IMG/VR virus record: IMGVR_UViG_3300042731_006219
Location: 1-40,208 of that record
Reading direction: 5' to 3' (one strand)
Source: a virus
DNA: 40,208 nt
Shown here: piece after piece, positions 2,783 to 39,317 of the stretch
Numbering within the stretch: position 1 is the stretch's first letter
Layout of the letters: the number at the start of each line of letters is the position of its first letter
Position numbers and translations under genes: made by a program
The notes under the pieces: generated by a model
Databases searched by the model: none
What the model was told of the DNA's origin: nothing
What the model saw: the letters and a program-made list of their open reading frames with translations, nothing else

Positions 2783-2811
2783 TAACGAATGTATATAACC
2801 AATTAATAATT
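2783..2811 (+). repeat. Intergenic motif shared with 31517-31540
   Basis: TAACG is followed by an 18-nt stretch (2789-2806) identical to 31523-31540, and both copies sit just before the start of a small gene. It belongs to the TAACG...GTATAT separator class found through 29.6-31.5 kb. Confidence 0.6.
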
Positions 2812-2817
2812 TTCATC

Positions 2818-2916
2818 ATGGAAAACAATGAAGGCTGCCGAAACGTATTAATAGTATTTATACTTTTTATAGTAGTAATTATAGGAATTGTGATTGTTAA
2901 ACTTTTAAATTTTTGA
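2818..2916 (+). CDS. Single-pass membrane miniprotein
   Basis: A 32-residue ORF: a polar N-terminus (MENNEGCRN) followed by about 20 hydrophobic residues (Val, Ile, Phe, Leu) and a KLLNF tail. It would be a one-segment membrane peptide. The stop is one base before the next gene's ATG. Its clean hydrophobic composition and position favour a real gene, but it is short. Confidence 0.45.
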   Translation: MENNEGCRNVLIVFILFIVVIIGIVIVKLLNF

Positions 2917-2917
2917 C

Positions 2918-3244
2918 ATGAAAATCATCATTGAAAACACCAAAAAAATTGTAAATTTAAATGGCATGGATATTGAAAATAAAATAGTAAAAATACTAAA
3001 AAGATGGGAGAAAGATAATGGATATTTCTTTAATTCTATTTTAGAAGATGATTATGAAAATATAGCACATGAGATAGTAAAATTATTTGCTATAACAGAT
3101 GTTAGCGGTAATGCTTCTGAGAGATACAGAAAAGCATTAAGCTACATACGTGAATCTACATTTGAACCTGGCATAGGTATTAAAAAAGCTAGTTATGTTT
3201 TAGAAAAGGCATTAAAGATTGCAAGCGGATATAATGTTGATTAG
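2918..3244 (+). CDS. Hypothetical protein
   Basis: A 108-residue, mostly helical protein. A central IAHEIVKLFA segment and an RYRKALSYIRE segment suggest a small helical bundle. No family recognised. It starts 1 nt after the upstream miniprotein stop. Confidence 0.6.
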   Translation: MKIIIENTKKIVNLNGMDIENKIVKILKRWEKDNGYFFNSILEDDYENIAHEIVKLFAITDVSGNASERYRKALSYIRESTFEPGIGIKKASYVLEKALKIASGYNVD

Positions 3245-3405
3245 CATTACCGCTAACAATATGTATAATCAAATGCAACAAGTTTTTAACTTCAAAATAT
3301 GGCAGACAGATTACGGGTAACTTTAATTCGCCAAATGGGTTAAATTTTGACAAATTGAATAATGAAAAACGCCGGGGGTTTCGGCCCCGGTTTAAAACTC
3401 TATAA
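3245..3405. other. Non-coding gap upstream of the csf-like operon
   Basis: This 161-nt gap holds a CGCTAACAATATGTATAATC separator-like sequence just after the upstream gene (about 3251-3270), a 14-codon ORF (3301-3345) too short to credit, and a GC-rich hairpin (3372-3390). No good TAnnTTTG promoter is visible. Confidence 0.5.
3372..3391 (+). terminator. GC-rich hairpin, terminator-like
   Basis: CCGGGG pairs with CCCCGG around a GTTTCGG loop, followed by TTTAAAA. It is very stable in an AT-rich genome, but the T-run is short, so it may be a weak terminator, an attenuator or a structural RNA element. A related CCGGGGG...CCCGG hairpin occurs on the minus strand at 32653-32676. Confidence 0.5.
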
Positions 3406-3782: not shown

Positions 3783-3935
3783 ATGGGAAAAGGATTATCT
3801 TTCACGATTAAAAACACTCCTGAAGAGCTTATTTTCGAGATTAAAAAACAGGATGGTAAAACTGAATCATTAGGATTATCACATCGAGAAGGAAAAAAAA
3901 TATCTAAATTTTTAAATAAAATTTACAATTTATGA
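3783..3935 (+). CDS. Small protein at the head of the csf-like operon
   Basis: A 50-residue basic protein (MGKGLSFTIKNTPEELIFEI...), overlapping the Csf1-like start by 4 nt (ATGA), so it is translationally coupled to the CRISPR-like cassette. It is much too short for a Cas11 small subunit and no family is recognised. Confidence 0.55.
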   Translation: MGKGLSFTIKNTPEELIFEIKKQDGKTESLGLSHREGKKISKFLNKIYNL

Positions 3936-4624
3936 ACTTAATTTCAAAACATTTAGACAGAAGTAACCTGAAACTTAAAGTGCATCAGGTTGATTCTATT
4001 TGTGCTTTTACTGGAGAAAAAATTATTGAAGGCATTTTGATGAAGGATTTAATAAAAAAAACATTCACGGATCATGAATTGATTAAATTTAATTCTGATT
4101 ATGCGAGTATTGACATTGCACTTCTTATCGAGGAAGTAATAAAAAGCGAAAAAGGGTTTAATTCTTTGCGCAATTATTCTTTTTATGCAGATGAATTAAA
4201 ACTTGAATTATTGAAGCGTAAAAACATCCTTGAATTGCTTCTTGATATTCCAAATAAGCCTTTTCAAATCGGGATTACTTTTAGCAATAAGAAACATATC
4301 GCCTACAAAGCACCTATCAATTTTGACACTGAAAATTATCAGGTTGTTACTGATTTGGGAGTGGTTAATTTTGATAAAAATAAAGCAATTAAAATAATTG
4401 AGATTGTTCAAAAATGGTACACTGTTTTGCCTGAAAAAAAAGAAACAACGGCACTTCCTACTTATTTTACAAAGGAGCAAATCAAAGGTTTATCAATTCC
4501 AAATCATAAGCAAATTGAAGCTTACGGGCTGCAAAAATATTTTAAAGAATTTCAGAAACTTGATAAGTTCCGTGGAACTTCATTATTTAATTTAATTATT
4601 TACTGTTTAAACAAAAAAATATGA
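3932..4624 (+). CDS. csf1-like: Csf1-like (type IV CRISPR large-subunit-like) protein
   Basis: A 230-residue protein whose pattern fits Csf1, the Cas8-like subunit of type IV effectors. The N-terminus has CAFTGEKIIEG (residues 24-34), where Csf1 usually has a zinc-finger CxxCG..G, followed by FTDHE (45-49). An RNYSF segment follows at 80-84, and PNKPFQIGITFSNKKHIAYK (107-126) matches the family's PF...KKH segment. Only one cysteine remains in the finger region, so zinc binding is probably lost. It overlaps its upstream neighbour and csf2 by 4 nt each. Alone, the match is suggestive; with Csf2, CysH and Csf3 downstream it is persuasive. Confidence 0.65.
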   Translation: MNLISKHLDRSNLKLKVHQVDSICAFTGEKIIEGILMKDLIKKTFTDHELIKFNSDYASIDIALLIEEVIKSEKGFNSLRNYSFYADELKLELLKRKNILELLLDIPNKPFQIGITFSNKKHIAYKAPINFDTENYQVVTDLGVVNFDKNKAIKIIEIVQKWYTVLPEKKETTALPTYFTKEQIKGLSIPNHKQIEAYGLQKYFKEFQKLDKFRGTSLFNLIIYCLNKKI

Positions 4625-5835
4625 AAGTAAATTATTCATTTAAAGCATTAACGCCGCTTTTTACTGGTGGAGATGAAAACAACGGCACATTACGGACTTT
4701 GCGCCGTGAAAAAAGACTTTTGACAAATCCTGTCAAATTTAAAAGTGTGTTCAGCAATAAGATTGAACGCACTAAATCACTAATGAACTTGATTTATCCG
4801 GTTTACACAAACATTGACAAAAACTTGAAAGCTGATAATTACGGTTTTTACGAGGCTTACGCAAACAAGGTAAAAGCCGCTTTATCGACTGAAAACAAAA
4901 AGCAATTCCTTAACAAGTTACTTGAAAGTTGCGGAATCGCTGTACTTGCTGATGGAAGTTCGCAACTTGTCCGTGAAACTCTCGACAAATTTTCTGATGT
5001 TGAATTTTTAGAAACGATACGAGAAGAACATCAATATTTGATGATCCTTTTACGCGAGTATGTTTCCTGGTATCGTTCAAATGAAAGTAAAAAAATTGAT
5101 TCTCAAATGAATATTTGGCAACAAGAAACCGAGCCGCTTGTTGAAGAAATTGAATTTGTGAAAAACTTTGAAAACGTGCCTTATTTTGGGGGAAATTCAA
5201 TCCGCGGGTATCTGCGAAGATTAATCATGCATGATTTTTGTAAAAAAATTAATATTACTAAATTAAACAAAGACATGTACCATCAACTTTTCACTGGTGG
5301 AAATATAACGGATTCAACCGGATTTGAGGATATTGCAAAGAGAGAAAAATATATAGAAATGTGCCCGGCTATCGGTCTCTTGGGTTCAGCTATTGGCAAC
5401 ATGACAATTGAAGGTGAAATGAAAGTAACCGGTGCCCGTTTACGTTGTAAAGAAAATGGGACTGGTGATTTAAGTTTCTGGCAATTGATCGAACAGAATT
5501 TTGGCACTCGTTTAGACAGTTCAAAAACTGAAAAAGAAATTGAGATTGTTAATAACATGGAAGAAAAAAGCCAGATGATTTATCAATACGAGAATTTCAT
5601 TACCGGCTCTGTCTTCGATTCTTCTTTTGTTTTAACCACAGAAGATGAACTTATGCTTTCAGCATTTTGGCGAATGATGAAACTTTGGGAAAAAAATAAT
5701 TTCATTGGTGGTAATTCTGCCCGTGATTCGGGAATGATTGAAATAGTAATGGATATTCCTGAAAATGCGGATTTAAAATATTTGGAATATATATCTGGAA
5801 AAAGCGAAGAAATTAAAGAGTATTTTAATGCTTAA
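4621..5835 (+). CDS. csf2-like: Csf2-like (Cas7-family) RAMP backbone protein
   Basis: A 404-residue RAMP-superfamily protein. It begins with a typical RAMP strand and loop, YSFKALTPLFTGGDENNGT (5-23), followed by LRTLRREKRLL. The central VPYFGGNSIRGYLRRLIMHD (186-205) is the diagnostic RAMP pattern (ipGsSlRGxlR). Later CPAIGLLGSAIGN and GGNSARDSGMIEI also fit Cas7-type glycine-rich loops. In type IV complexes Csf2 polymerises along the guide RNA. Length agrees with Csf2. Part of a tightly coupled operon: 4-nt overlap with csf1-like and 8-nt overlap with cysH-like. A type III Csm3/Cmr-like RAMP is the main alternative, but no Cas10 is present. Confidence 0.75.
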   Translation: MKVNYSFKALTPLFTGGDENNGTLRTLRREKRLLTNPVKFKSVFSNKIERTKSLMNLIYPVYTNIDKNLKADNYGFYEAYANKVKAALSTENKKQFLNKLLESCGIAVLADGSSQLVRETLDKFSDVEFLETIREEHQYLMILLREYVSWYRSNESKKIDSQMNIWQQETEPLVEEIEFVKNFENVPYFGGNSIRGYLRRLIMHDFCKKINITKLNKDMYHQLFTGGNITDSTGFEDIAKREKYIEMCPAIGLLGSAIGNMTIEGEMKVTGARLRCKENGTGDLSFWQLIEQNFGTRLDSSKTEKEIEIVNNMEEKSQMIYQYENFITGSVFDSSFVLTTEDELMLSAFWRMMKLWEKNNFIGGNSARDSGMIEIVMDIPENADLKYLEYISGKSEEIKEYFNA

Positions 5836-6523
5836 TTGGGAACAATGGAAACAAGCATGTCTGGTGCATTCTAATTCTATGAAATTTCAAGATAAAATAA
5901 AGAATGCGTCAGATTTATGTTTGTCTGTTTTAGAACAAATAAACAATCCCGCTATTGCTTTTTCAGGCGGAAAAGATAGTACTGTTGTTTATCATCTTGT
6001 CAAAGATATAGCGCCTGATATCGAATCGTTTTATTGGGATGATGAATTTATATTAATAGAAACCGAATTATATATTGATAAAATAGGGGATATTAATATC
6101 AAAAAAAATCAAGCAAAACATACTGATTGGTTTAAAACAAATATTGGTAAAATTGACAATTTAGAAGAGTTTGACACAATTTTTCTTGGATTGAGAGCGG
6201 ATGAAAATTCATATAGAAAAAAACAATTAGCAAATTATGGGCTTGCTTATTTTTCTAAGAAATACCAATATAACATTATTAATCCTATTGGTTGGTGGAA
6301 ACTTATTGATGTCTGGGCTTATATTTTTTCAACTAACAGGGATTATAATAAAGCTTATGAAATAATGGCAAAAAATGATATTGATTATAAAAATCAGCGC
6401 ATAGGACCATTTGCAAATGATAGAGCAATTCAATATGGTCAAATAGCTATATTGAAACAATGTTTCCCGGATGATTATAATAAATTTATTCAAAAATATC
6501 CAATTGCCAAAAGTTATGCCTAA
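5828..6523 (+). CDS. cysH-like: CysH-like PAPS-reductase family protein
   Basis: A 231-residue adenine-nucleotide alpha-hydrolase fold protein. The PP-loop is AIAFSGGKDSTVVYHL (SGGKDST at 46-52). FLGLRADENSYR (118-129) matches the substrate loop of PAPS-reductase-like enzymes, and NPIGWWKLIDVWAYI (151-165) is the downstream family motif. The C-terminal CxxC/ECGLH motif of true PAPS reductases is absent, so sulfate reduction is unlikely; adenylation or thiolation-type chemistry is possible. CysH-like genes are a recognised companion of type IV-B csf loci, and this copy lies inside the csf cassette, overlapping csf2-like by 8 nt and the next gene by 8 nt. Phages also carry free-standing homologues. 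Confidence 0.85.
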   Translation: MLNWEQWKQACLVHSNSMKFQDKIKNASDLCLSVLEQINNPAIAFSGGKDSTVVYHLVKDIAPDIESFYWDDEFILIETELYIDKIGDINIKKNQAKHTDWFKTNIGKIDNLEEFDTIFLGLRADENSYRKKQLANYGLAYFSKKYQYNIINPIGWWKLIDVWAYIFSTNRDYNKAYEIMAKNDIDYKNQRIGPFANDRAIQYGQIAILKQCFPDDYNKFIQKYPIAKSYA

Positions 6524-6800
6524 AGGAATAAAATGGAAATATAGTCAAATAGTATATTTAAAATTGAATTATGGCAGGATGACTTATGCTAAAATGAGAA
6601 AATTTATGCCTGAACATTCAGAAAAGGCAATTTCAAACAAGGCTGTTGAATTAGGTTTAAGCGACAAACAAAACTGGAATCCTTTTGAATGTATAGTTGC
6701 TATTTACTACCCAAACAAAACAGGCGAACTATTAACAAATAGAAGTACAAACGCTTTAAAAATAAAACGATGCAGACTTATAAAATCACTTTCAAATTAA
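6516..6800 (+). CDS. SANT/Myb-like HTH small protein within the csf cassette
   Basis: A 94-residue basic protein. LKLNYGRMTYAKMRKFMP followed by EHSEKAISNKAVELGLS (about 15-50) resembles the small phage SANT/Myb-type DNA-binding domain. The ATG at 6516 is preferred because it overlaps the cysH-like stop by 8 nt; a longer form from 6471 would overlap it by 53 nt. It overlaps the csf3-like start by 31 nt. It occupies the place where a small subunit gene might be expected, but it looks DNA-binding rather than like Cas11. Confidence 0.6.
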   Translation: MPKGIKWKYSQIVYLKLNYGRMTYAKMRKFMPEHSEKAISNKAVELGLSDKQNWNPFECIVAIYYPNKTGELLTNRSTNALKIKRCRLIKSLSN

Positions 6801-7438
6801 TAACCCCGATTTCGTTTATTGATATTCCAACTTTAGACGGAATATTAAGTTATGCTTTTGCCCGTGAAAAGTTAAAAGGACAAGGCTTTGCTCAGAAATT
6901 GAACATTACAAAAGAAGAAATGCTTGATTTTTCAGAAATGCCAATTTCATTGCATGAAAAAGGCTATTTTATGGCTTCAAGGATGTTTTGGGATGAAGAG
7001 ATGGCTATTGAACACACGCAACGATGGCGAAAACGTTGGGCAAATAAGCATGATAAAATTGCCGATTTTGGTAAGCAAATCCGAAAAGTAAGAATCAATG
7101 CAGGTGAATTTAAAAGTTACGACATGCCATTACGGGTTGTTGCAATTGACAAGGTTTGGTTTTATTTCAAATCTGAATCAATGCCGGAAGTTGACAGGCT
7201 TGTTAGAAAATGGATTTATTTTCTTGGTAAAAAACGCTCTCAGGGTTACGGTGAAATTTCGTTTTTTAACATTGAAAAATCAGATTATAATTTTAATGGC
7301 GCATTTCGCCCAATACCAACTTTTTTATTTGATGTTGATTTTACAAAATTTACAAAAGTAGAGATTAAATATTGCGCATGGAAACCCCCATATTGGTTAC
7401 CTGAAAATTTTAATCAATGTATAATGAATTTTTATTAA
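6770..7438 (+). CDS. csf3-like: Csf3-like (Cas5-family) RAMP protein
   Basis: A 222-residue RAMP protein fitting Csf3, the Cas5-like subunit that caps the guide 5' handle in type IV effectors. The N-terminus YKITFKLITPISFID (4-18) followed by LDGILSYAFAREKL (22-35) is the expected first strand and helix. The middle carries MPLRVVAIDKVWFYF (119-133), and GKKRSQGYGEI (153-163) is the glycine-rich RAMP loop, followed by RPIP. A conserved-looking Trp/Arg-rich RWRKRWANKH segment (85-94) could contact RNA. It ends the cassette, 7 nt before the replication gene start. A Cas6-like role cannot be excluded. Confidence 0.72.
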   Translation: MQTYKITFKLITPISFIDIPTLDGILSYAFAREKLKGQGFAQKLNITKEEMLDFSEMPISLHEKGYFMASRMFWDEEMAIEHTQRWRKRWANKHDKIADFGKQIRKVRINAGEFKSYDMPLRVVAIDKVWFYFKSESMPEVDRLVRKWIYFLGKKRSQGYGEISFFNIEKSDYNFNGAFRPIPTFLFDVDFTKFTKVEIKYCAWKPPYWLPENFNQCIMNFY

Positions 7439-29304: not shown

Positions 29305-29332
29305 AACCCTGTCTTTATGACAGGGTTTTTTA
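29305..29332 (+). terminator. Rho-independent terminator of the late operon
   Basis: AACCCTGTC (29305-29313) pairs perfectly with GACAGGGTT (29319-29327) around a TTTAT loop and is followed by TTTT. It sits 34 nt after the putative lysin stop and ends the head/lysis operon. Confidence 0.85.
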
Positions 29333-29372: not shown

Positions 29373-29440
29373 CATAGATATTATAAATTGATAGATGCAC
29401 GATAAAATGGCATTTACATATTGTTATAAATCTGGAAATT

Positions 29441-29617
29441 ATGGATAAAAATAATGTAAAAGAGAAAACACCTACTGAAAAACAAGTAGTTTTAGTCTCT
29501 TCGAATTACCATAGCTTAATTGAGCGTGAGGCTATATATGTTAATGGGCAATACTTTTGGACTGATGATATGCTACCATTAAAACCTAAGTATTGGAGAA
29601 ATAAACCGAGTGAATAA
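29441..29617 (+). CDS. Small gene-cassette protein
   Basis: A 58-residue polar protein (MDKNNVKEKTPTEKQVVLVS... ending KYWRNKPSE). A GTTATAA sequence (29423-29429) lies just upstream and a TTATAACGG just downstream, bracketing it like a cassette. No family recognised. Confidence 0.5.
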   Translation: MDKNNVKEKTPTEKQVVLVSSNYHSLIEREAIYVNGQYFWTDDMLPLKPKYWRNKPSE

Positions 29618-29629
29618 TTTCTTGTTTAT

Positions 29630-29679
29630 AACGGTATTGATATGCCCAGTTTGGGTTTACGAGCTAAAAACTTTGAATT
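29630..29679 (+). repeat. Cassette separator, TTATAACG type
   Basis: TTATAACGG just after the upstream stop is followed by GATATG, a small CCCA-GTT-TGGG hairpin and the next ATG at 29680. It has the same order (TAACG, TATATG-like, hairpin) as the separator after 30715. Confidence 0.5.
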
Positions 29680-30066
29680 ATGAGAGAAAGCGACAACGAT
29701 TTTATGAACAACAAATACCCCACTAACCCCAAATTGGGTATATCTGATGTTAGGGTTAGTACATCTTACATCATTTGTGCAGCAATTTGGTTTAAGGATG
29801 GTAATAAATACAGCCATCAACCAAGAAATGTAGATAGTGGGTTAGTTGTGTGTGGGCGTAGGCATCACAATTGTTATTTAACGGCATTTGAATTAAACGG
29901 AGGTAAAAAGATTGAAGGATTAAATGAACTTAATGCGAAGGCTGTGCAGGGGTTCTTAACAAGCGATGATAGATTTGTTGACCGTAAAGAGGGTGGGCAA
30001 ATTGCTTTTGATGCGGGGCAGACTGCTAAATTAAAAAACTGCCTTTTTTCGGAGGACTTGTATTAA
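29680..30066 (+). CDS. Hypothetical protein with GRRHHNC motif
   Basis: A 128-residue protein. SYIICAAIWFKDGNKYSHQP is followed by GLVVCGRRHHNCYLTAFEL and, at the C-terminus, VQGFLTSDDRFVDRKEGGQI with AFDAGQ. I have seen the last pattern in small phage and prophage proteins of unknown function. The Cys/His-rich CGRRHHNC could bind metal. It is the largest gene of the small-gene block. Confidence 0.65.
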   Translation: MRESDNDFMNNKYPTNPKLGISDVRVSTSYIICAAIWFKDGNKYSHQPRNVDSGLVVCGRRHHNCYLTAFELNGGKKIEGLNELNAKAVQGFLTSDDRFVDRKEGGQIAFDAGQTAKLKNCLFSEDLY

Positions 30067-30129
30067 CCCTAACGTTGGTTGTATGTTGACGGTTTTTAGC
30101 GGAATTTGAAACACTAAAATAAAATAGAT

Positions 30130-30375
30130 ATGAGTTTAATTGAAAAATATAAAGCATGGGCTAAATACTCTGATAAATACACAGCAGCACAAGTACTGAC
30201 TGAAATAGTTGCAGACCTTACATGTCTTGAACAAGAGCAAGCTAAAAACTGCAATATACAACGTGTTATAAAACTGGCTTGCCTTTGTCCAAGAACAAAA
30301 TATGATGATTGCGACAGAGCCGAGCCATGCTTAGAATGTGATGGATGTCATTATTTTAGGCAAGCTTGTTTATAA
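30130..30375 (+). CDS. Cysteine-rich small protein
   Basis: An 81-residue protein with a helical N-terminus (KYKAWAKYSDKYTAAQVLTE-like) and eight or more cysteines, concentrated at the C-terminus (CLCPRTKYDDCDRAEPCLEC, then CHYFRQAC). This would form a zinc-binding or disulfide-rich tail. Its stop codon is inside the left end of the attC-like site. Confidence 0.6.
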   Translation: MSLIEKYKAWAKYSDKYTAAQVLTEIVADLTCLEQEQAKNCNIQRVIKLACLCPRTKYDDCDRAEPCLECDGCHYFRQACL

Positions 30376-30464
30376 CGGTCGAGTGTAGCCATCAGTAGGC
30401 TAATGCACTGACCTATCAATTTAGTAATAATTTTCCGCCTATTGTGGCTACACTTTGTTAGCGG
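30370..30464 (+). repeat. attC-like recombination site
   Basis: This 95-nt site starts TTATAAC (30370-30376) and ends GTTAGCG (30457-30463), like the R'' and R' boxes of integron attC sites. Inside, AGTGTAGCCA (30382-30391) pairs perfectly with TGGCTACACT (30445-30454). After one unpaired T (30392), CAGTAGGC pairs with GCCTATTG (30437-30444) with one G-T wobble. A 5-nt and a 2-nt spacer separate boxes from stem. The bulged base, the unpaired spacers and the position (overlapping a stop, just before the next small gene) are all attC hallmarks. No integron integrase is in the window. Confidence 0.6.
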
Positions 30465-30487
30465 CAGGGCGGGCAAAATAAAAGAAT

Positions 30488-30715
30488 ATGACACACGAAG
30501 AAAAAATCAATTACATGAGAATTGCTGCTAGAATAGCAGGTTTTGGAATTAAAAACGAACACTTAGATTTACTTGTAAGTGTTTATGAACTAATCCTTGA
30601 AAAGAAAGGAAAAGGCAATATTGATGATGTTGTAAAAATAGAAAGCGAGGTTAAACATCGGGCAGATGTAAAGGCTCGTTCTGAATTACTAGATAAAGTA
30701 TCTGAAAAGGTATGA
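30488..30715 (+). CDS. Small gene-cassette protein
   Basis: A 75-residue helical, charged protein (YMRIAARIAGFGIKNEHLDL, then ELILEKKGKGNIDDVVKIES). It begins 24 nt after the attC-like site. No family recognised. Confidence 0.6.
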   Translation: MTHEEKINYMRIAARIAGFGIKNEHLDLLVSVYELILEKKGKGNIDDVVKIESEVKHRADVKARSELLDKVSEKV

Positions 30716-30728
30716 TGTAGCCTTGCCG

Positions 30729-30762
30729 CTAACGGTTACGTATATGGGCTGATTGCCCTTGA
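30729..30762 (+). repeat. Cassette separator, CTAACGG type
   Basis: CCGCTAACGG, then GTATATGGGC, TGATT, GCCC: a TAACG element with a GGGC/GCCC hairpin between the two small genes. Related to the separators at 29630 and 31036. Confidence 0.5.
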
Positions 30763-30796
30763 AATTTAGTAGAAACTTGATAAAATATACAGACTT

Positions 30797-31039
30797 ATGA
30801 ATACAGACAAAACAACAACAGAGAACGGCAATTTGCCTATATACGGTGTTATAAGCCGTGCTTTGGTTAATGCTGTAAAAGAAGAGGCTGATTACGATTA
30901 TGACCAACATGGTGAAAGTTGGCAATGGGCAATAAACGAAATGAGCGATGAAGTAAATGAAGCGTGGAGACAAAAAATGAATAAGATATATGATTTAGCT
31001 TGCCAACTTGATGAACAATTGAAGTTGCATGGCTTATAA
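30797..31039 (+). CDS. Small gene-cassette protein
   Basis: An 80-residue acidic protein (VNAVKEEADYDYDQHGESWQ, then INEMSDEVNEAWRQKMNKIY). Helical, without recognised domain. Its stop overlaps a TTATAACGG separator (31034-31042). Confidence 0.6.
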   Translation: MNTDKTTTENGNLPIYGVISRALVNAVKEEADYDYDQHGESWQWAINEMSDEVNEAWRQKMNKIYDLACQLDEQLKLHGL

Positions 31040-31073
31040 CGGACAGGTATATGAAATTTAAAATTTACGAATT

Positions 31074-31286
31074 ATGAAAGACAAAACATTATTACCAGAC
31101 CAAGAATGGAATCACTTGTATATTGATAAACCCAAGAATGGGCAAAAGTGTATGAGTAAGATTAAAGGTGAACAGGGATATGTAAGTGAATGTATTTATA
31201 ATAACGGGTACTTTGAAACTTACGAAGACAAAAGAAATAGATTTGTTATTACAAGGTGGAAACATGATTTATGGCTACCAGTGTAG
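31074..31286 (+). CDS. Small gene-cassette protein
   Basis: A 70-residue protein with HLYIDKPKNGQKCMSKIKGE, then GYFETYEDKRNRFVITRWKH and DLWLPV. The short Trp/Pro ending resembles small phage proteins that accompany DUF551-type domains (ITHWMPLP-like endings), but the similarity is weak. Confidence 0.6.
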   Translation: MKDKTLLPDQEWNHLYIDKPKNGQKCMSKIKGEQGYVSECIYNNGYFETYEDKRNRFVITRWKHDLWLPV

Positions 31287-31329
31287 TAAATTTTATTTTT
31301 TATATACATTGTTATAAACTGATAAAATT

Positions 31330-31503
31330 ATGGAGACCAAAAAATACGAATACATTATCGAAATAGAATACAAAGAACTAATACCAACAGACTGGCTTAA
31401 TAAACGTGGTGCATTGGGATGGGAATTAGTTGCTGTTGTTGATGATAAAGACATAGACGGAAAAGAATTATTGCGCTATCACTTTAAACGAGCGTGCGAA
31501 TAA
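31330..31503 (+). CDS. DUF4177-like small protein
   Basis: A 57-residue protein: KYEYIIEIEYKELIPTDWLN followed by KRGALGWELVAVVDD and LLRYHFKR. The LNxxGxxGWELV pattern and strand order fit the small DUF4177-like fold. GTTATAA (31312-31318) lies 11 nt upstream of the start and TTATAACG (31514-31521) is downstream, so it is bracketed like a cassette. Confidence 0.65.
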   Translation: METKKYEYIIEIEYKELIPTDWLNKRGALGWELVAVVDDKDIDGKELLRYHFKRACE

Positions 31504-31513
31504 TTTTATTTGT

Positions 31514-31540
31514 TTATAACGTATGTATATAACCAATTAA
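31514..31540 (+). repeat. Cassette separator shared with 2783-2806
   Basis: TTATAACG is followed by an 18-nt stretch (31523-31540) identical to 2789-2806 and then by a similar AT-rich leader into the next gene. Confidence 0.6.
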
Positions 31541-31553
31541 AAATTTTTCATAA

Positions 31554-32964: not shown

Positions 32965-33066
32965 AATTTCTGAGTTTTTAGTTATTAATTATGATATAAA
33001 GATACAAAATATTGTCATTCCGTGCAAGATTTTGTACTATTATTTGACAAAATATTGTCTATTTAT
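32956..33066 (-). promoter_or_regulatory. 111-bp promoter-operator repeat, copy 1
   Basis: Identical over 111 bp to 34692-34802. On the minus strand it carries CTTG (33028-33025), 20 nt, TATCTTTA (33004-32997), a Bacteroidota-type promoter. Three dyads of the form ACAA-N4-TTGT (33004-33015, 33024-33035 with GCAA, 33047-33058) are centred 20 and 23 bp apart, about two helical turns each; the first overlaps the -7 box and spacer, the second the -33. It ends in the first nine bases of the downstream gene. Confidence 0.8.
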
Positions 33067-34700: not shown

Positions 34701-34802
34701 AATTTCTGAGTTTTTAGTTATTAATTATGATATAAAGATACAAAATATTGTCATTCCGTGCAAGATTTTGTACTATTATTTGACAAAATATTGTCTATTT
34801 AT
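34692..34802 (-). promoter_or_regulatory. 111-bp promoter-operator repeat, copy 2
   Basis: Identical to 32956-33066. The -7 box TATCTTTA is at 34740-34733, CTTG at 34764-34761, and the dyads at 34740-34751, 34760-34771 and 34783-34794. It drives the start of the leftward block and lies divergent from the + promoter at 34827-34858. Confidence 0.8.
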
Positions 34803-34826
34803 TTTCATTCTAAATTATGGCAAATA

Positions 34827-37968: not shown

Positions 37969-38616
37969 ATGGATTATTTTTCCAGGCACGAGATAAGTAA
38001 TTCTGATCTTTCCGAGCTTTTGTTATATTTTTCCTGCGTTGAAGATCAGTCAGAACCGGTCGAGGCGTATCGTTTCGGCCGGCTGATTGACTTCATGATC
38101 ACGGAACCTGAAAAAATTAATTATTTCAATTATACAGCGGATGATGAGCAATACACGAGAGAAGAATTTGATCTTGCTTACAAGATGTTAGAATCTGCAA
38201 GAAAAGATAGATTTTTAGGACCATTACTTCCTCAATTTGTTGGCCAGAAAATATTTTCAAATCAAAATTTTAATATAAAATGGGGCGATTTTTCATTCGA
38301 TATTCCTGTTAGATGCAAATATGACCTTTGGTCTGACATTTTGAAATGGGGCTGCGATATAAAATCAACAACGGCAACAACATTAGAACAATTCGAGGCT
38401 GCTTGCTGGCATTTTTGGTACCCGAGACAACGGTCTTGGTATATGGATATTTCAGGGGCTGAAAAGGATATGCTTGTCGGGATATCGAAGAAAAATTACC
38501 AGGTTTTCAAGATTCCTATTGACAGGAAATCGAAAATGTATATAAAAGGTCGTGAATCTTATTCAGATCTGGCCTTTAAATGGTATAGTTTGTTTTATGA
38601 ATTTAATAAAGAATGA
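37969..38616 (+). CDS. PD-(D/E)XK exonuclease, RecE/YqaJ-like
   Basis: A 215-residue nuclease. FGRLIDFMITEP (about 33-44) is the conserved helix of the family, CKYDLWSD brings the first acidic residue, and WGCDIKSTTATTLEQFEA supplies the D-x-K catalytic pair (Asp-Ile-Lys). QRSWYMDISGAEKDML completes the core. Such enzymes degrade DNA ends to supply single strands to RecT, and the gene lies in the same operon. It overlaps the RNA ligase gene by 4 nt. Confidence 0.8.
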   Translation: MDYFSRHEISNSDLSELLLYFSCVEDQSEPVEAYRFGRLIDFMITEPEKINYFNYTADDEQYTREEFDLAYKMLESARKDRFLGPLLPQFVGQKIFSNQNFNIKWGDFSFDIPVRCKYDLWSDILKWGCDIKSTTATTLEQFEAACWHFWYPRQRSWYMDISGAEKDMLVGISKKNYQVFKIPIDRKSKMYIKGRESYSDLAFKWYSLFYEFNKE

Positions 38617-39317
38617 AAAAACCACTAGGACATAAAGCGTACGGTCATATTCCTCATTTTATAGGTAGTAGAATGACTCCTTCTGATAAACATTGTGAAC
38701 CAGGACAACAGAAAATAATGACAGAAAAAACGAGGGATAAAAAAGATTTAATTATAGTTCAAGAAAAATTAGACGGAAGTAATTGCAGTGTTGCAAAAAT
38801 TGAAGGAAAAATAATTGCATTAGGAAGAGCTGGTTATTTAGCTGAAAGTAGTAATTATAAACAACATAAATTATTTGCTAAATGGGTTAATTGTCATATA
38901 GAAAGATTTGATAAATTATTAAATGAAAACGAACGTGTAACTGGCGAATGGTTAATACAAGCTCATGGCACTAGGTATAATTTAAAACATGAGCCTTTTG
39001 TTGTTTTTGATATAATGAAAAAACATAATAGAATTAATTATCATGAATTTGTAACACGAGTACTTCCTCTAGGGTTTATAATTCCTAGGCTAATTCATAT
39101 AGGCCAACCATTTCAATTAGATTTAGCGAAGTTAGCAATAAAAACAAGTGGTCATGGAGCTATAGATAAAGTAGAAGGTGTTGTTTATAGGTGCGAGCGT
39201 GAAAATAAGGTTGATTTTTTATGTAAATGGGTTGATCCTTATAAAATAGATGGTAAATATTTACCTGAAAGAAATAATGGATATACAATATGGAATTATG
39301 ACATTACTTTAATTTGA
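38613..39317 (+). CDS. RNA ligase-family protein
   Basis: A 234-residue nucleotidyltransferase. Motif I is EKLDGSNCS with Lys52 as the predicted AMP-accepting residue; motif III-like segments follow (WLIQAHGTRYNL; FVVFDIM); motif IV is KVEGVVYR; motif V is FLCKWVDPY. Most like RNA ligases of the DRB0094/Rnl-type group. Such enzymes can mend tRNA cut by host anticodon nucleases. Expression from the early operon, directly after the exonuclease, fits an early repair or counter-defence role. Confidence 0.85.
   Translation: MKKPLGHKAYGHIPHFIGSRMTPSDKHCEPGQQKIMTEKTRDKKDLIIVQEKLDGSNCSVAKIEGKIIALGRAGYLAESSNYKQHKLFAKWVNCHIERFDKLLNENERVTGEWLIQAHGTRYNLKHEPFVVFDIMKKHNRINYHEFVTRVLPLGFIIPRLIHIGQPFQLDLAKLAIKTSGHGAIDKVEGVVYRCERENKVDFLCKWVDPYKIDGKYLPERNNGYTIWNYDITLI

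Follow-up and report, generated by a model that had tools for sequence, protein, structure and literature searches.

The whole stretch of DNA analysed here, hereafter the window, corresponds to the 40,208 bases of the IMG/VR virus record IMGVR_UViG_3300042731_006219 (one strand, possibly a fragment). Between 29.42 and 31.52 kb, it carries an array of small genes that is very likely an integron-type cassette array devoid of its own integrase, with units in which the attC site precedes the gene and with a recombinase that would most likely be a host Bacteroidia integrase acting in trans. An earlier note on this DNA had already proposed an attC array without integrase in a phage; this proposal is supported by matches to a covariance model of attC sites, by the paired ends of the units and by the gain and loss of cassettes in other phages. 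We also consider it rather probable that Bacteroidia possess their own class of integrons, present in about half of the species and relying on a Xer-like recombinase devoid of a domain thought to be essential, and that phages have turned its cassettes around, with an attC that comes first and supplies the start codon, and thereby swap small accessory genes with one another. Three elements are new: units of reversed polarity whose genes start within attC, precise junctions observed between natural phages, and a widespread system of Bacteroidia whose recombinase is non-canonical.

The record carries terminase, tape measure, head protease and capsid genes, its terminase resembles those of phages of Parabacteroides, Bacteroides and Flavobacterium, and it is a phage of Bacteroidota bacteria. 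The array is bordered on the left by a terminator located around 29306-29332 (29.31-29.33 kb), after the late genes, and on the right by a block of minus-strand genes. The integron integrase model TIGR02249 matches nothing in the 40 kb of this record, possibly a fragment. Searches of the window against Rfam at gathering scores and against phage records by megablast gave no match, and neither the endolysin used as a probe for kin phages, nor the end-site sequence TAACGNATGTATATAACCAATTA searched in IMG/VR, nor an attC loop motif searched in genome contigs recovered anything; the capsid protein recovered one fragment, from which the array is absent. As no close relative of the window phage carrying an array was found among these searches, mobility was tested in other Bacteroidota phages that harbour the same type of site.

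The array is delimited by short boxes, which lie where the earlier note had reported them: TTATAACG at 29626, 30370, 31034 and 31514, CCCTAACG at 30067 and CGCTAACG at 30727. Their counterparts, GTTATAA or GTTAG, are found at 29423, 29749, 30265, 30457, 30848 and 31311; several had been described as preceding gene starts, but those at 29749, 30265 and 30848 lie inside ORFs. The count of the TTATAACG motif is by itself insignificant (5 seen versus 2.2 expected, 5 being reached in 7 of 100 shuffles). The pairing of the boxes is more telling. Indeed, the start and end boxes of each of the six units are complementary over 9 to 13 of 14 bases (9, 10, 12, 13, 13 and 13), and four of the six units reach 12 or 13 whereas none of 657 pairs taken from the rest of the window reaches 12. 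The self-complementary ends include GTTAGGGTTAGTAC/GTATTAACCCTAAC, GTTAGCGGCAGGGC/GCCTTGCCGCTAAC and GTTATAAGCCGTGC/GCATGGCTTATAAC, and so on, while the boxes of adjacent units match over only 5-8 of 14 bases, with little in common beyond GTTA. The pairing partner therefore switches at GTTA, each end pairing with the other end of its own unit and not with its neighbour, which is the pattern that would be expected of former circles later set side by side.

The units, all read on the plus strand, succeed one another as follows. The leftmost one (29423..29632) is a partial end cassette, whose upstream attC half is truncated; it carries gene 1 (29441-29617, 58 aa) and its end boxes match over 10/14 bases. 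It is followed by the cassette made of attC1 and gene 2 (29633..30073; gene at 29680-30066, 128 aa, family phrog_839, E 3e-16; boxes 13/14), then by attC2 and the Cys-rich gene 3 (30074..30376; 30130-30375, 81 aa; boxes 9/14 ungapped), attC3 and gene 4 (30377..30733; 30488-30715, 75 aa; boxes 13/14) and attC4 and gene 5 (30734..31040; 30797-31039, 80 aa; boxes 13/14). The last cassette (31041..31520; boxes 12/14) combines attC5, which holds gene 6 (31074-31286) in its loop, with gene 7 (31330-31503), whose product shows a weak, below cut-off match to DUF4177 (Pfam E 0.0026). The right end of the array corresponds to a terminal half site on the minus strand, TAACGTATGTATATAACCAATTA (31514..31545), and a near-identical sequence is found near 2783. 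A second, more degenerate plus-strand cassette (2783..3252) has attC arms near 2787 and 3101, an ORF (2918-3244) that begins in the loop and a stem score of 8; the 2.3-3.3 kb region displays weaker stems, together with one perfect end pair, GTTAGCGGTAATGC/GCATTACCGCTAAC.

A second set of arms, located outside the boxes, pairs across the separators and forms five imperfect stems with scores of 14-16, compared with 11 for the best stem elsewhere in the window and 13 for the best one in five shuffled windows. These five attC sites, all on the minus strand, are attC1 (29626..29755, 130 nt, gene 2 beginning in its loop, stem score 15), attC2 (30067..30271, 205 nt, with a long loop that includes the start of gene 3, score 16), attC3 (30370..30463, 94 nt, with a non-coding loop, score 14), attC4 (30727..30854, 128 nt, gene 5 beginning in its loop, score 14) and attC5 (31034..31317, 284 nt, score 16, with 22-nt arms that are 86% complementary). 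The earlier note had recognized a single full separator, that of attC3, and this site does show a paired stem with a bulged T; it is not the only one, however, since the other separators are also complete, being whole sites of 128-284 nt with longer loops, one of which contains an entire small gene. Bulged bases were seen in attC3 and in a site of another virus (L002), most sites displaying instead A/G mismatches at recurring positions. At position 11 from GTT, outside the classical R box, an A/G difference between start and end boxes also recurs in the window and in chromosomal arrays, in reversed form in the phage; the recognized site may reach about 7 nt past the R box.

A covariance model was built from 20 aligned attC sites that all come from bacterial (Bacteroidia) chromosomes, for which RNAalifold predicts 18 pairs with compensatory changes in 14 of them. 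Run unfiltered over the window, it matches three of the five separators, all on the minus strand, at 29626-29755 (E 3.6e-10), 30727-30854 (E 4.1e-8) and 30370-30463 (E 4.9e-7), the next best match in the 40 kb having an E-value of 0.27; these E-values are rough because the calibration was short. The attC search by which the earlier note had proposed to check the block thus gives a positive answer. The model does not match attC2 as a whole and does not match attC5, because their loops of about 190 and 270 nt are too long for it, and both sites carry the same boxes, spacers and arms as those that are matched. Hence, the window sites display R boxes, imperfect hairpins with a covarying stem and strand asymmetry, and three model matches plus two more stems are clustered within 1.7 kb, i.e. 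more than the two close attC sites that define a CALIN (a cluster of attC sites without integrase); no integron integrase was found nearby by TIGR02249 in the 40-kb record, itself possibly a fragment.

The orientation of these sites relative to the genes, missed in the earlier note, is the reverse of the canonical one: the mobile unit is an attC followed by a gene, and the attC points against the genes. In the class 1 control, plasmid R46 (a stretch of plasmid R751 was also examined and carries no integron), the cassettes have self-pairing ends, and A (or C) is the first spacer base after R'' while C is the last one before R'. Likewise, in Bacteroidia chromosomal sites located close to a recombinase, AAC-A on one side is matched by C-GTT on the opposite side, a feature that is invariant in the 20 aligned sites. 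In the phage arrays, this spacer order is reversed relative to the genes. Strand stability follows the same trend, the gene strand folding better than its complement at 21 of 22 phage sites and worse at 22 of 27 chromosomal ones. When gene direction is compared with the strand of the model match, 49 of 56 chromosomal sites are parallel, 5 antiparallel and 2 unclear, whereas all 17 sites of the multi-cassette phage arrays are antiparallel (the window, L002, the Mu-like prophage L010, P12002S and Danklef_1). Five viral IMG/VR contigs found with the chromosomal-site motif comprise four with a solitary parallel cassette and one with an antiparallel cassette; the idea that all phage cassettes are antiparallel was therefore dropped, and the rule is limited to the arrays seen. 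The textbook unit, i.e. a gene and the attC that follows it, had been adopted at the outset and was overturned by the junctions of L002, P12002 and Danklef. In the window, the gene neither precedes its own attC nor runs parallel to it.

These junctions come from phages that can be compared base by base. In the Polaribacter phage pair Danklef_1/Danklef_3, the 2,841 and 4,671 bases (7.5 kb) that flank one difference are 100% identical; this difference corresponds to exactly one unit of about 777 nt carrying an adenine methylase gene and joined in TAAC. Danklef_1 reads ATTAACTCTAAC, then, past a first junction, GGTACTCGTATATG, the attC, GTTACCTGTAGTAATT, the gene and AATTATTACAGGTAAC, then, past a second junction, TAAAAAG; at the same locus, Danklef_3 passes directly from ATTAACTCTAAC to TAAAAAG. 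The joined sites have little in common beyond TAAC. The Polaribacter phages P12002S and P12002L, which are 99.6% identical in their longest common block, differ by several cassettes; four of the five breakpoints are confined to an AACG located 3' of the gene and the fifth lies about 10 nt beyond the core, in TGTAT. Furthermore, virus L002 shares with the window the loop of attC1 and gene 2 (87% nucleotide identity); this stretch ends exactly at the 3' box, where a different attC follows, its left end being less clear. In Danklef, P12002 and L002 alike, the unit has the attC first and the gene second. Phages related by their sites are therefore not co-linear, contrary to what the earlier note had named as the result that would speak against its reading: whole cassettes, in Danklef_1/Danklef_3 and P12002S/P12002L, have been gained or lost as units at the GTT core. 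By analogy with these close counterparts, the window array is probably mobile as well, and the window phage may still exchange cassettes.

The reversed unit places several gene starts within recombination sites. Genes 2, 3 and 5, like the ORF at 2918, begin within an attC and read through its L and R boxes; for genes 3 and 5, the stop codon is the TAA contained in TTATAAC. In the phages PAU, pT24 and csAssE-Sib, the homologues of gene 2 are devoid of most of the residues that precede a conserved CAAIW-like motif; judging from these alignments, the attC-encoded N-terminal part of the gene 2 product seems to have been added. Small proteins would then be made from starts located inside attC. The GTT is read as a codon (frame 0) in 15 of 18 ORFs that cross a box, a bias not counted as strong evidence since it is partly forced, the box itself often providing a TAA or TAG stop in the other frames.

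A candidate source of the recombinase was sought in 295 Bacteroidia genomes, with 120 and 115 genomes of two other classes as controls. A classical IntI scoring above the TIGR02249 cut-off was found in only 1 of the 295 genomes. By contrast, 137 encode an IntI-related tyrosine recombinase of about 345-455 residues that falls below this cut-off (E 1e-50 or better). At E 1e-5, the attC model matches 210 of the 295 Bacteroidia genomes versus 1/120 and 0/115 controls (1/235). Sites and recombinase tend to co-occur (129 genomes with both, 8 with the recombinase only, 81 with attC only and 77 with neither; odds ratio 15, uncorrected for kinship). Two genomes labelled as lying outside Bacteroidia (G417 and G302/L006) have 9-10 attC matches each, several of them very strong, which reflects either misbinned contigs or transfer.

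Among 27 recombinase loci examined, attC sites lie downstream of the gene in 13 and upstream in one more (L033). In 11 of the 13, an attI-like box, often preceded by a motif like TATANACAA, is found 34-112 nt past the recombinase stop and matches the end of the first cassette over 9-11 of 12 bases; of the two remaining loci, one has its box at 773 nt and the other a poor match. Most genes of these arrays are parallel to the sites, stopping shortly before R'' and starting shortly after R'. The larger loci contain up to 12 or more attC sites in a row, codirectional with the recombinase in L109 and L110 and divergent from it, as in class 1 integrons, in L106-L108. Integrase, attI and cassette array thus occur together in Bacteroidia loci, the attI being predicted from sequence. 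The host-integron origin suggested in the earlier note fits this picture, as the same attC family adjoins the recombinase on Bacteroidia chromosomes. Contigs often end soon past the 3' end of the recombinase gene (e.g. L078 and L079); within the first 300 nt of contigs, 16 recombinase matches are on the minus strand (by count of the list) and none on the plus strand, as if the variable array broke the assembly.

The Bacteroidia recombinase has the fold of IntI, since both it and IntI1 match PF00589 and the N-terminal SAM-like PF13495. However, it is devoid of the additional domain of roughly 40 residues found around patch III: KDR and HxLRH are separated by 60-66 residues in each of the 26 recombinases measured, versus 103 in IntI1 and in one classical Bacteroidia IntI. 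The best NCBIfam match of one of these enzymes (L047) is NF040815 recomb_XerA_Arch (236.6 bits, cut-off 220), and like the members of this family it has no insertion in its catalytic domain. Xer proteins act at dif; the Bacteroidia enzyme differs from them by its location, next to an attC array and an attI-like junction.

Inverted repeats between small genes could also be fixed hairpins, i.e. terminators, leaders or RNA processing sites, in a region where nothing moves. Their location, the best folding of the mRNA-sense strand and the terminator found just upstream agree with this possibility, but it is contradicted by the exact gain and loss of units at the boxes in Danklef_1/Danklef_3 and P12002S/P12002L, it hardly accounts for the change of pairing partner at GTTA, for the match to a chromosomal attC model or for the several ORFs that cross stems, and it is the least credible of the explanations considered. 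Another reading retains the standard polarity and unit, the gene preceding its attC, and supposes that exchange at the box located before the gene makes new N-termini. This is indeed the arrangement of classical cassettes, as well as that of 49 of 56 chromosomal sites in Bacteroidia. This reading is nevertheless very improbable for the window, because all the junctions that can be placed are at the box after the gene, the spacers and strand stability are reversed, and such a unit would part three genes from their start codons.

The nature of the enzyme raises two further alternatives, both of which appear unlikely. The elements could be true integron cassettes whose similar attC sites serve as substrates of homologous or RecT-type recombination when phages exchange them, without any integrase: the Danklef phages encode RecT, the window shows a weak RecT match, and one P12002 junction lies in TGTAT, past the core. 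Yet the joined Danklef sites resemble each other in little but TAAC, and exchange by homology should leave junctions dispersed along the 20-nt arms, whereas four of the five P12002 junctions fall within AACG. Alternatively, a classical IntI, with its additional domain, from some host could move the cassettes instead of the Xer-like Bacteroidia recombinase. IntI1 does recombine an attC of P12002L (PMC9892861), and one of the 295 Bacteroidia genomes encodes a classical IntI; such enzymes are, however, very rare in Bacteroidia, in many genomes of which it is the Xer-like enzyme that adjoins attI-like junctions and this attC family.

The mechanism favoured here is therefore transfer of attC-first cassettes by a host integron enzyme. 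Each unit being an attC followed by a gene, the gene runs against the canonical polarity of its own attC. Exchange would occur within the TAAC/GTTA core located 3' of the gene, corresponding to the canonical R' box, and the best-folding strand, which is the bottom one in canonical sites, is here the coding strand. While the phage DNA is in the cell, a host Bacteroidia integron integrase would most likely act in trans on single-stranded hairpins of the phage sites.

CALINs are known in virulent phages, including the Polaribacter phage P12002L (Qi et al. 2023, PMC9892861), and like the window they are attC arrays without integrase. The class 1 integrase IntI1 recombines one attC of P12002L. That study notes divergent attC directions in P12002L but reports neither the reversed unit, nor exact gain and loss between near-identical phages, nor a Bacteroidia source. 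The window also resembles class 1 and sedentary chromosomal integrons by its RYYYAAC/GTTRRRY-like boxes, the strand asymmetry of its hairpins, its self-pairing cassette ends and, in the other phages compared, exchange at a GTT core. It differs from them by stems in which mismatches at fixed places often replace bulges, by antiparallel genes and by a presumed source recombinase that lacks the IntI additional domain. As in the Spirochaetota integrons with a reversed intI (PMC9668308), the Bacteroidia integrase lies outside its usual divergent position, most loci being codirectional with the array; however, the Spirochaetota integrases count as IntI whereas the Bacteroidia enzyme lacks the additional domain, and L106-L108 show the usual divergent arrangement.

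Integrons are a main route by which bacteria stockpile and shuffle unrelated genes, and they are counted as rare in Bacteroidetes. In this group, only lone integrases had been found earlier, with one complete integron, in Salinibacter (IntegronFinder 2.0, PMC9024848), and no published account of attC arrays in Bacteroidia was found in a search that left out most subscription journals and all preprints. If the proposed system is real, standard tools miss most Bacteroidia integrons because their recombinase falls below the model cut-off. According to published descriptions, the additional domain of IntI is essential, although incompletely conserved (PMC8138268), and is a defining feature of these integrases (PMC9668308); its requirement for integron recombination would become directly testable. 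The same system would also explain concretely how the accessory regions of phages become mosaic, the junctions being located to within a few bases.

Other features of the window were noted in passing. From 3932 to 7438, it carries a type IV CRISPR-Cas-like gene set, in which a Csf1/Cas8-like gene (3932-4624) is followed by a Cas11-Cas7-like fusion (4621-5835), a gene for a PAPS-reductase-like protein (5828-6523) and a Csf3/Cas5-like gene (6770-7438); no repeat array was seen. An RNA ligase (PF09414, E 1e-21) is encoded at 38613-39317, in the early region. A 22-23-nt tandem repeat, ACAAAATATTGTCTATTATGTG, occurs twice, at 33004-33063 and 34740-34804, upstream of minus-strand genes and within a longer duplicated stretch; both copies are possibly iterons or operators.
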